This document shows positions 10,964 to 24,808 of a stretch of DNA of 64,000 bases, one piece after another. The stretch is from Phycisphaerae bacterium (lineage in GTDB: Bacteria > Planctomycetota > Phycisphaerae > Phycisphaerales > Phycisphaeraceae). Below the pieces are notes generated by a model. That model saw only the letters and a list, made by a program, of their open reading frames with translations. It did not search any database and was not told the DNA's origin. The translations under genes and the position numbers were made by a program. The stretch spans positions 186,001 through 250,000 of the forward strand of contig JAUHZU010000004.1 in the NCBI GenBank assembly GCA_030425705.1, written 5' to 3'. Every line of letters begins with the position of its first letter. Position 1 is the first letter of the stretch.

Positions 10964-11067
10964 GTAGGGTGGGTGGAGCGAGTCCGCGAGCGATACCCAC
11001 CAGAAATCGCCAACCGGTTGACAGCGCGCGGTGGGTATCGGCCGCGGACGGCCTCCACCCATCCTAC
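10964..11067. repeat. Palindromic repeat family C, 38-nt imperfect arms
   Basis: Arms 10964-11001 and 11030-11067 match as reverse complements at 32 of 38 positions, with a 28-nt loop. The element fills the gap between two minus-strand genes. Its right arm contains the stop codon (11064-11066) of the SDR gene. Confidence 0.85.
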
Positions 11068-18167: not shown

Positions 18168-19292
18168 ATGGCCACCGAGCGCATCATCTCTGCCGACGCC
18201 GCTTCGCCGCGCGAGGAGCAGTTCAACCTCGCGCTGCGGCCGCAGTCGCTCGCCGAGTACGTCGGCCAGCCCGCGTTGACCGACAAGCTGGCGATCACTT
18301 TGGAAGCCGTGCGCCAGCGCGGCGAGCCGATGGAGCACGTCCTGCTGCACGGCCCGCCGGGCCTGGGCAAGACCACCCTCGCCCACATCATCGCCCACGA
18401 GATGGGCACGCACCTCACCGTCACCGCCGGGCCCGCGCTCACCAAGCCCGGCGACCTGGTCGGCCTGCTCACCAAGCTCCAGCCCCGCGACGTCCTCTTC
18501 ATCGACGAGGTCCACCGCCTGCCCATCGCGCTCGAGGAGTACCTCTACTCGGCGATGGAGGACTTCAAGATCGACGTGCAGATCGACTCGGGCATGCACG
18601 CCAAGACGATCACGCTGCCCGTCCAGCCGTTCACCCTCATCGGCGCGACGACGCGCGCGGGGCTGATGTCCGGCCCGATGCGCAGCCGGTTCGGGCTCAG
18701 CCACAACCTCGAGTTCTACAGCGAAGCCGACCTGCTGAACATCTTGCAGCGGAGTGCGGGGCTGCTGGGGATGGGAAACGATGGGGGCCAAGGGGCCGAG
18801 GGGCCGGGGGGACAAGTGAGGGAACCGGAGGCAGAAGACTCGCAACACTCGGCCCCTGGGCCCCCGGGCCCCTGGGCCCCTGCGCTGTCCACCATCGCGC
18901 GTCGCTCGCGCGGCACGCCACGGATCGCCAACCGCTTGCTCCGCCGGGTCCGCGACTACGCGCAGGTGAAGCACGGCAACCGGCTGACCCCGGCCGTGGT
19001 CGATGAGGCGCTGCAGCTCGAAGGCGTCGATGCGCTGGGGCTGGACGAGCTGGACCGCAAGTACCTGCGCTGCATCGCGGAGGTCTACGAGGGCGGGCCG
19101 GTCGGTTTAGAGGCCGTCGCCGCGACGCTGGGGGACGACGCGGGCACGCTGGAGCAGGCGGTCGAGCCGTACCTGCTGCAGATGGGCTTCCTCGCCCGCA
19201 CCCGCAAGGGCCGGCAGCTCACACGCACCGGCGCGGAACACCTGGGCGTGAAGCTGAAAGCCCGCAGCGACGACGCGGCGGGGTTGTTCTGA
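18168..19292 (+). CDS. ruvB: Holliday junction branch migration ATPase with in-frame palindromic insertion
   Basis: 374 aa, longer than the usual 335-350. RuvB is the hexameric AAA+ motor that drives branch migration with RuvA. Walker A is HGPPGLGKTTLAH and Walker B is VLFIDEVHRLP. Sensor I (TLIGATTRAG) and the arginine finger region (PMRSRFG) follow. The C-terminal winged helix ends RTRKGRQLTRTGAEHLG. Between LLNILQRSAGLLG and IARRSRGTPRIANR, where about 12 residues are normal, some 40 Gly/Pro/Glu-rich residues (about 203-242) are encoded by a palindromic repeat. Reading frame and flanking conserved residues are intact, so the protein is probably functional. ruvA and ruvC are not in the window. 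Confidence 0.95.
   Translation: MATERIISADAASPREEQFNLALRPQSLAEYVGQPALTDKLAITLEAVRQRGEPMEHVLLHGPPGLGKTTLAHIIAHEMGTHLTVTAGPALTKPGDLVGLLTKLQPRDVLFIDEVHRLPIALEEYLYSAMEDFKIDVQIDSGMHAKTITLPVQPFTLIGATTRAGLMSGPMRSRFGLSHNLEFYSEADLLNILQRSAGLLGMGNDGGQGAEGPGGQVREPEAEDSQHSAPGPPGPWAPALSTIARRSRGTPRIANRLLRRVRDYAQVKHGNRLTPAVVDEALQLEGVDALGLDELDRKYLRCIAEVYEGGPVGLEAVAATLGDDAGTLEQAVEPYLLQMGFLARTRKGRQLTRTGAEHLGVKLKARSDDAAGLF
18784..18880. repeat. Palindromic repeat family E inside ruvB
   Basis: ggggccaaggggccgag at 18784-18800 pairs with 18848-18864 as an inverted repeat (16 of 17). Further ggggcc/ggcccc units extend to 18811 on the left and 18880 on the right. Base use here is unlike the flanking ruvB codons. 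The element is translated in frame. Confidence 0.75.
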
Positions 19293-23051: not shown

Positions 23052-24740
23052 ATGACCCAGCTCTGTGTCCCGATCTTTGTTCATGACCCCGCGCAGACGC
23101 GCGGCGACGCCCGGCGTGCGCAAGAGGCCGGGGCCGACCTGATCGAGCTGCGCATCGACCCGATCGCCGAGCAGGCGCGCGGCGACGCGTCGGTGCTGGA
23201 TGCGCTGGTCGCGCTGGTGCGCGAGAGCCCGCTGCCGTGCATCGTTACCTGCCGGCCGGCGTGGGAGGGCGGGCAGGACGACGGGGAAGACGCGGAACGC
23301 ATCGCGCTGCTCGAGCACCTGGGGACGCGGTGCGCCGGGCACGGGCCGGCCTACTTTGATGTCGAGCTCGCGGCGTACCAGCGGTCGGCGAACCTGCGGC
23401 AGAAGGTCCACCTCGTCGCCGACCACCCCGGCCAGGACCCGCCCCGCCGACGCGAGCCCGGGCTGATCCTCTCGTCGCACGACTTCGAGGGCCGGCCCCC
23501 CGACCTGCTCCGCCGGGTCGGCGACATGGCCGACGCTGAGGGTTGCCGGGTCGTGAAGGTCGCCTGGCACGCCCGCTCGCTGCGCGACAACCTCGAAGCG
23601 TTCGAACTCCTCGCGGCCCGGCACAAGCCGACGATCGCCCTGTGCATGGGCGCGTTCGGCCTGCCGTCCCGCGTGCTGGCCAAGAAGTTTGGTGCGCTGC
23701 TCACCTTCGCCGCGCTCGGCGACGCCGACGCCACCGCGCCCGGCCAGCCCACGGTTGAACAGCTCAAGACCCTCTACCGCTGGGACCATATCGGGCCCGA
23801 CACGAAGGTCTACGGCGTCATCGGCGACCCGGTCGGCCACTCGATGTCCCCGGCGATCCACAACGCGGGGTTCACCGCCACCGGCTACGACGGGGTGTAC
23901 CTGCCGATGCGCATCCCGCCCGAGTACGAGCACTTCAAGGCGACGGTGGATGCCTGGCTGAATGACCCGCGCTTAGAATTCCGGGGGGCGTCCGTGACGA
24001 TCCCGCACAAGCAGCACCTGCTGCGCTTCGTCCGGGAACAGGGCGGCGAGGTCGAGCCCCTGGCCGAGCGCATCGGCGCGGCCAACACGCTGCACCGGCG
24101 CGACGACGGCACGCTCTACGCCGGCAACACCGACTATGCCGCGCTGCTGGACGCCGTGTGTGACGCCTTGAACGAGCCGCGACCGTCAGGGAGCGGACCC
24201 GCGCCGTCGTCAAGCCCATCCCAAGGGTCCGCTCCCTCACGGCCGCGGCTCGTCGATCGCGAAGCCCTCGCGGGGAAACGCGTCGCGGTGCTCGGCGCGG
24301 GGGGCGCGGCGCGGGCGGCCGTCGCGGGATTCACCCACTACGGCGCGCACGTCACGGTCCACAACCGCACGCCCGACCACGCCCGCGCGCTCGCCGAGGC
24401 CTTCGACGCCAACCACGCCCCGCTCGATGCCGTCGACCTCGACCAGACCGACATCCTCATCAACTGCACGCCCGTCGGCATGCACCCGAACGTTGATGCG
24501 TCACCGCTCGACTTCGGACACCGGGCGTTGGACATCGAGAACCCCCCGCTTGTCTTCGACACGATCTACAACCCCCACGAGACCCGGCTCCTCTGCGACG
24601 CGAAGGCCGCGGGCTGCCGGACGATTCCGGGGGTCGAGATGTTCGTGCGACAGGCCGCGGCACAGTACGCGCTGTGGACCGGGCACGATGCGCCGATCGA
24701 CGTGTTCAGGCAGGTTGTTATTGACAGGATGACTGGATAA
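23052..24740 (+). CDS. aroDE: Bifunctional 3-dehydroquinate dehydratase / shikimate dehydrogenase
   Basis: 562 aa fusion covering shikimate pathway steps 3 and 4. Residues 1-245 are a type I dehydroquinase: ADLIELRIDPIA, CIVTCRP, LILSSHDFEG (catalytic His) and CRVVKVAWHARS (Schiff-base Lys). Residues 255-562 are shikimate dehydrogenase: VIGDPVGHSMSPAIHNAGF, GASVTIPHK, GNTDYAALL, the NADP loop VLGAGGAARAAVAG and INCTPVGM. Residues 374-401, just before the Rossmann domain, are encoded by a palindromic repeat. The last residues and stop lie in a second repeat. Both active-site sets are complete. The fusion itself is known in some bacteria and in plants. Confidence 0.95.
   Translation: MTQLCVPIFVHDPAQTRGDARRAQEAGADLIELRIDPIAEQARGDASVLDALVALVRESPLPCIVTCRPAWEGGQDDGEDAERIALLEHLGTRCAGHGPAYFDVELAAYQRSANLRQKVHLVADHPGQDPPRRREPGLILSSHDFEGRPPDLLRRVGDMADAEGCRVVKVAWHARSLRDNLEAFELLAARHKPTIALCMGAFGLPSRVLAKKFGALLTFAALGDADATAPGQPTVEQLKTLYRWDHIGPDTKVYGVIGDPVGHSMSPAIHNAGFTATGYDGVYLPMRIPPEYEHFKATVDAWLNDPRLEFRGASVTIPHKQHLLRFVREQGGEVEPLAERIGAANTLHRRDDGTLYAGNTDYAALLDAVCDALNEPRPSGSGPAPSSSPSQGSAPSRPRLVDREALAGKRVAVLGAGGAARAAVAGFTHYGAHVTVHNRTPDHARALAEAFDANHAPLDAVDLDQTDILINCTPVGMHPNVDASPLDFGHRALDIENPPLVFDTIYNPHETRLLCDAKAAGCRTIPGVEMFVRQAAAQYALWTGHDAPIDVFRQVVIDRMTG
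24172..24253. repeat. Palindromic repeat family F inside aroDE
   Basis: Arms 24172-24200 and 24225-24253 are reverse complements at 27 of 29 positions with a 24-nt loop. The element is read in frame and gives a Pro/Ser/Gly/Arg-rich linker. It lies between the substrate-binding and NADP-binding lobes of the shikimate dehydrogenase part. Confidence 0.9.
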
Positions 24741-24808
24741 GCAGGATGAACCGGATCAAAGCTGGGTCCTCCCATCCTGTTGATCCTGCAACATCCTGTC
24801 ATCCTGTC
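24723..24808. repeat. Palindromic repeat family G at the aroDE 3' end
   Basis: Left arm about 24723-24758, right arm 24773-24808, built from a caggatNa-type word repeated three to four times per arm; pairing is imperfect with a one-base slip. The aroDE stop (24738-24740) lies in the left arm. It is followed by the aldo/keto reductase gene on the same strand. Confidence 0.8.

Follow-up and report, generated by a model that had tools for sequence, protein, structure and literature searches.

A REPIN read in frame within aroDE of a Phycisphaerae bacterium, and the association of its repeat family with class 3 TnpA-Y1 transposases

REPINs are regarded as non-autonomous mobile hairpins composed of two inverted REPs and moved by a HUH tyrosine transposase. 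The accessible text of Quentin et al. 2018 describes a class 3 of TnpA-Y1 transposases, recognizable by the motifs NHVH, W[TA] and YV..EQ, occurring in Planctomycetes, Acidobacteria and Proteobacteria and accompanied by atypical flanking hairpins of high copy number; the foot of these hairpins reads CnGA and ~600 copies are present in Solibacter usitatus (PMC6006769). According to the same text, unusually long members were dropped as fusions or annotation errors (PMC6006769). Palindromes lying within genes have been described as well. The Rickettsia palindromic elements, known before 2013, are read in frame and have a length of ~150 bp (PMC10969869). The intragenic GTAG/CGTC REP dimers reported in 2013 encode 20-30 residues in repair and RNA-related genes, including those of the PVC bacterium Opitutus terrae (PMC3733652).

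In this work we have analyzed a window of 64,000 nt from the genome of a Phycisphaerae bacterium, in which a palindrome is read in frame within aroDE. The palindrome is a REPIN, a pair of GAGCCGCGACCGTNAGGGAGCGG hairpin REPs that stand face to face. We propose, with a probability of roughly 0.86, that it belongs to a family mobilised by a HUH tyrosine transposase of the class 3 TnpA-Y1 / RAYT kind, was inserted in frame on the branch of this species and was kept by the tolerance of a protein linker.

The palindrome in aroDE and its empty sites

The open-frame analysis gave aroDE as a single frame that stays open across the palindrome, and both enzymes of the fusion were identified by Pfam and NCBIfam. 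The arms of the inverted repeat (24172-24200 and 24225-24253) have 29 nt each, of which 27 are complementary (93%), are separated by 24 nt and correspond to codons 374-401; the description given in an earlier note on this DNA (29-nt arms matching at 27 positions, residues 374-401, in frame) was thus reproduced. The length of 82 bp given there has to be corrected, as the ends of the element lie at 24174-24251 and leave the outer AC/GT as a split target or a REP foot. Both inverted REPs are capable of forming a hairpin, and the 78-nt body folds as single-stranded DNA with -31.2 kcal/mol (z = -7.1; none of 200 shuffles equalled it). At the possible stop position of the REP (TNA) both arms read TCA, so the aroDE frame remains open. 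Another inverted repeat, GACAGGATGACTGGAT...ATCCTGTCATCCTGTC at window 24723-24808, provides the final aroDE codons and the stop.

Table 1. Features of the aroDE locus (window coordinates) and list of the valS loci carrying a transposase. G and L numbers are our labels for genomes and loci.
Feature	Position	Strand	Description
aroDE, host gene	23052..24740	+	type I 3-dehydroquinate dehydratase / shikimate dehydrogenase, 562 aa
AC flank	24172..24173	+	does not vary beside copies of the same genus; either part of a split ACGT target or the first two letters of the foot ACGA
REPIN body	24174..24251	+	78 nt = 26 codons, read as EPRPSGSGPAPSSSPSQGSAPSRPRL; absent from 29 homologues
Left REP	24174..24196	+	GAGCCGCGACCGTCAGGGAGCGG; tag GAG, 4-bp stem, 2x2 internal mismatch, 2-bp stem, GTNA loop
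Inner part	24197..24228	+	ACCC/GGGT prolong the long stem; remainder is loop, its sequence differing from copy to copy
Right REP, inverted orientation	24229..24251	-	GAGCCGCGGCCGTGAGGGAGCGG; one mismatch to consensus
GT flank	24252..24253	+	mirrors AC flank
Carriers of valS-embedded transposase			G198, G324, G404, G401, G359, G304, G319, G378, G398, G325, Phycisphaerales OFTM204
valS-transposase loci			L219 (G300, Phycisphaerales OFTM204), L220 (G198), L279-L283 (G398, G401, G325, G359, G404), L368, L372-L374

The palindrome falls between the Pfam matches Shikimate_dh_N (256-347) and Shikimate_DH (405-473), which agrees with the placement at the domain linker suggested before: it separates the substrate-binding from the NADP-binding part of the shikimate dehydrogenase (SDH), in the linker ahead of the Rossmann domain. 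On alignment, Arabidopsis DHQ-SDH, the structure of which has been solved (2gpt), has a Ser/Pro-rich stretch at the equivalent place.

A search with the aroDE protein covered 121 genomes of the order. Most of these gave a match that is interrupted at residues 374 and ~401, its two DNA pieces almost touching each other, and exactly 26 residues are missing in 29 of the 30 aligned aroDE sequences, three genomes of the same genus among them. The linker is therefore not a conserved protein segment encoded by other DNA in relatives, and since the 29 homologues do without the 26 residues the insertion most likely arose on the branch of this species. The net gain relative to the homologues equals the interval from GAG to CTC (24174-24251). 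When the insert is removed in silico, the codons AAC GTC are joined and the protein reads ALNVDREAL, to be compared with ALKINREQL and GLNIAREEL in relatives. The comparison with homologues revealed no target-site duplication or repeated flank at aroDE, the net gain being exactly 78 nt; this length favours a split ACGT target over a REP foot, as far as a single clean site can without being proof, and an insertion of 82 nt combined with a loss of 4 nt is possible too. A REPIN close to aroDE in G344, the complete genome of a sister species, was considered as a further empty site (L264) and rejected because its spacer differs by ~700 nt from the window. The gene aroDE provides the only clean empty site, the loops of other host genes varying in length too.

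According to the proposed course of events, the copy would have lengthened the gene by 78 nt when it entered the hinge codons AAC GTC between AC and GT, and the frame kept open would specify an enzyme with a 26-residue linker rich in Ser, Pro, Gly and Arg. Selection may have retained the insert since the site between the two SDH lobes tolerates extra residues. AroDE with the insert is presumably made and active, and its retention would reflect neutral tolerance and not benefit.

A hairpin retained for its usefulness in aroDE, e.g. by slowing the ribosome between the lobes during folding or as an element of mRNA stability or attenuation, appears improbable. The body is indeed very stable when folded as RNA (-53.3 kcal/mol, z = -7.5 against shuffles) and sits exactly on the domain border, where pausing could aid folding, but it is missing from all the homologues mentioned, same-genus ones included, and the same REP sequence is scattered through unrelated genes and intergenic sites. 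Moreover, no terminator-like or promoter-like site was found and no Rfam family reached its gathering score. The Rfam match to mir-632 (27.7 bits vs a gathering score of 67 bits) arises from the palindrome and was rejected.

The REP family and its transposase partner

REP copies were counted by a pattern search; as the loose REP pattern gives many chance singles at the named loci, single elements within genes were left out there. The genome containing the window has, besides the aroDE element, one more full pair, at C2:113818-113900 in a spacer, along with two decayed halves, and 66 REP cores are present in G344, so that the copy check proposed with the earlier note shows an element that is not single-copy. 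The counts range from 0 to 174 across 51 genomes of the family, and the REP is present in 13 of 294 sampled planctomycete genomes with up to 286 copies. Its distribution is patchy and comprises Planctomycetota, Acidobacteriota, Legionella and others; the exact core was found, among the matches listed, in records of Acidobacteriota, Legionella, Chloroflexota and Verrucomicrobiota.

All six hairpin pairs are kept in 16 distinct REP variants (100% of cells paired) and three of the six show compensatory changes, which supports the REP hairpin. The REP tag reads ACGAG and thus differs from the terminal GTAG or CGTC and their listed variants. In the order of the window the foot is read as ACGA, and copies of other lineages, flanked by CC, CA or CG, fit CnGA. 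The full pairs of G344 are flanked by AC...GT without exception, and its REPINs (L250-L278) have two main sizes, 78 nt with ACC...GGT inside and 69 nt with GGC...GCC inside, their loop sequences being different. Lengths divisible by three are over-represented, with 20 of 29 in G344 and 29 of 49 elsewhere (each p ~1e-4 vs one third, the true significance being lowered by the shared ancestry of copies). Additional ACGAG copies at 15 and 18 nt outside the insertions were seen in 9 of 185 cases.

At least seven pairs are read in frame in G344, namely in valS, trmD, clpB, tsaB, miaB, ksgA and a Cu-ATPase gene, surrounded by codon structure and gene-family matches. The copy in trmD sits where the gene passes into a GNAT-like C-terminal part, and in a serine hydrolase gene a further one, close to the N-terminus, may lie before the true start. 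Same-genus homologues of these host genes are without the element, most of the loops concerned being length-variable anyway. The ksgA loop that holds a REPIN in G344 carries in G374 (L337) a different palindromic repeat, PLPAGEGPGVRG...PSPRPSPVGGGEG, also in frame.

Other palindromes are present in the window. The insert in ruvB (18770-18885) belongs to a different palindromic repeat family with its own ~10 dispersed partial matches in the genome, in line with the claim that the ruvB and aroDE elements are unrelated, and the view that two repeat families have made their way into genes within 6 kb is upheld. The ruvB insert occupies the same place in G344 and is therefore older than that in aroDE. 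At 10964-11067 an inverted pair tagged with GTAG (GTAGGGTGGGTGGAGCG...), resembling a REPIN of the GTAG type, lies beside a short-chain dehydrogenase-like gene.

The genome containing the window has a single Y1_Tnp gene with none of this REP nearby and no class 3 transposase, which makes the aroDE copy an orphan; no class 3 transposase was found in G344 either, despite its many cores. Relatives as well as Legionella shakespearei have the REP on the flanks of a distinct HUH transposase with SNHVH or TNHVH, WTRHGSTRYL and YV..EQ; examples from relatives are RSNHVH, WTRHGSTRYL and YVINEQ, and some members have YVLEEQ or YTLEEQ. By its motifs NHVH, W[TA] and YV[VI][AENY]EQ the putative cognate transposase matches class 3 TnpA-Y1. 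Two profile searches gave 44 related loci; the REP or a variant adjoins 10 of the 13 transposase loci scoring above 200 bits (the exceptions being G374, G283 and G047) and none of those scoring below ~200 bits. Related free transposases of G374, G395, G321 and G242 have none of this REP close by. The association suggests that the family is moved by the class 3 transposase, probably through a single-strand mechanism like that of IS200/IS605. With the cognate enzyme lost from the genome or never present in it, the aroDE copy is probably immobile today.

An element of the Rickettsia palindromic type, with a mechanism unrelated to RAYT and only a secondary association with the transposase, would show the same behaviour, i.e. 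in-frame palindromes in housekeeping genes (PMC10969869, PMC3733652), and genomes with many REPs and no tight-clade class 3 transposase do exist (G344 with 66, G389 with 99 and G371 with 68), for whose copies the transposase model has to invoke either a loss or the assistance of another transposase. We nevertheless consider such an origin improbable, because the REP accompanies the tight transposase clade in 5 of 5 genomes of the family vs 18 of 46 others (one-sided Fisher ~0.014, calculated by hand) and the REP variants at transposase loci change in step with the lineage of the transposase. Less probable still is a MITE belonging to an ordinary DDE insertion sequence: a short palindrome that lacks its own coding capacity and lies within genes would fit, but target-site duplication is lacking at aroDE, each arm is itself a covarying, tagged hairpin, and the arms flank a HUH transposase in several lineages. 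An artefact of assembly or binning is the least credible, since the genome, split as it is over 21 contigs, has the window on a contig of 370 kb with the frame and the codon-position G+C continuous on either side of the insert (0.69, 0.45, 0.93 and 0.74, 0.47, 0.91), and the family occurs also in complete single-contig genomes.

A class 3 transposase inside valS

The most surprising by-product of the analysis of this REPIN family was a class 3 transposase in one frame with valyl-tRNA synthetase (ValRS) in 11 planctomycete genomes (Table 1). The HUH and Tyr motifs are intact in all 11. In the 10 genomes with a delimitable loop the transposase is bounded by QWYVKVTDDRLAGAALRAM and RYAKTFQxWHENIRDWCISRQ of ValRS, and translated REPs, e.g. 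TSRDREGA and PLPHGRGS, were found on both sides of it at each of the seven valS loci inspected. The loop comprises 62-92 residues in eight examined sequences without the transposase. In G344 (L262) and G296 (L217) this loop is occupied by another RAYT, in G344 a match to NF047646, and the repeats around it are also others, reading GTGILPV / HRQDACAT or GTGVSPV / GRDARAT. The trees of the ValRS part and of the transposase part agree partly, which is compatible with descent or repeated entry. Two further genes contain a Y1_Tnp (RAYT) domain in frame, namely purH (L218:2814-5345, minus strand) and a methylase gene of the Eco57I / DUF7008 type (L216:1299-6140, minus strand).

As a tentative idea, to which we give less than even odds, the class 3 REP system of Phycisphaerales-type planctomycetes might lead a life at the level of proteins comparable to that of inteins. 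The transposase would be kept as a translated insert of the ValRS loop, where selection acts against frameshifts and stops, and the REPINs, mostly multiples of three in length since their source copies are translated, would seed in-frame inserts such as that of aroDE in housekeeping genes; unrelated RAYTs would have used the same ValRS loop. Since valS contains the transposase in frame and with intact catalytic motifs, the way in which protein-level genomic parasites persist becomes directly testable.

Comparison with known systems

None of the open-licence papers searched contains the REP sequence or its peptides, apart from a 12-mer in a Bradyrhizobium paper that looks like a chance match, and none of them mentions RAYT together with valyl-tRNA synthetase. 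The Rickettsia palindromic elements are comparable by their behaviour, being palindromic, in frame, located in housekeeping genes and tolerated at the protein level; they come from an unrelated lineage and are longer than the aroDE element. We know of no transposase partner of the Rickettsia elements. The described REPINs and REPs with RAYTs (PMC3116915, PMC2817692) share with this family the inverted REPs with outward tags, the dispersed and non-autonomous character and a REP-flanked HUH transposase, which here is found in relatives. Unlike them, the present family has the tag GAG and the foot ACGA in place of GTAG, many copies in frame in genes and lengths that are mostly multiples of three. 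The intragenic GTAG/CGTC REPs (PMC3733652) differ from the aroDE family in tags and sequences.

The class 3 REPtrons (PMC6006769), compared by motif, are alike in the transposase motifs, in the phyla and in the high-copy flanking hairpins; the published foot is CnGA vs ACGA in the order of the window, and in-frame intragenic copies are not described in the accessible text of that paper. The aroDE element thus belongs to a known phenomenon, that of the intragenic REPs and the Rickettsia palindromic elements, and extends it to a REP family whose transposase partner is identified. As far as the available literature shows, the in-frame habit of the family, of which aroDE is the cleanest case, the foot ACGA of this order and the location of the transposase within ValRS are new. 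The aroDE insert is a clean, branch-specific example of a mobile hairpin joining a core metabolic enzyme, to which G344 adds at least seven more.
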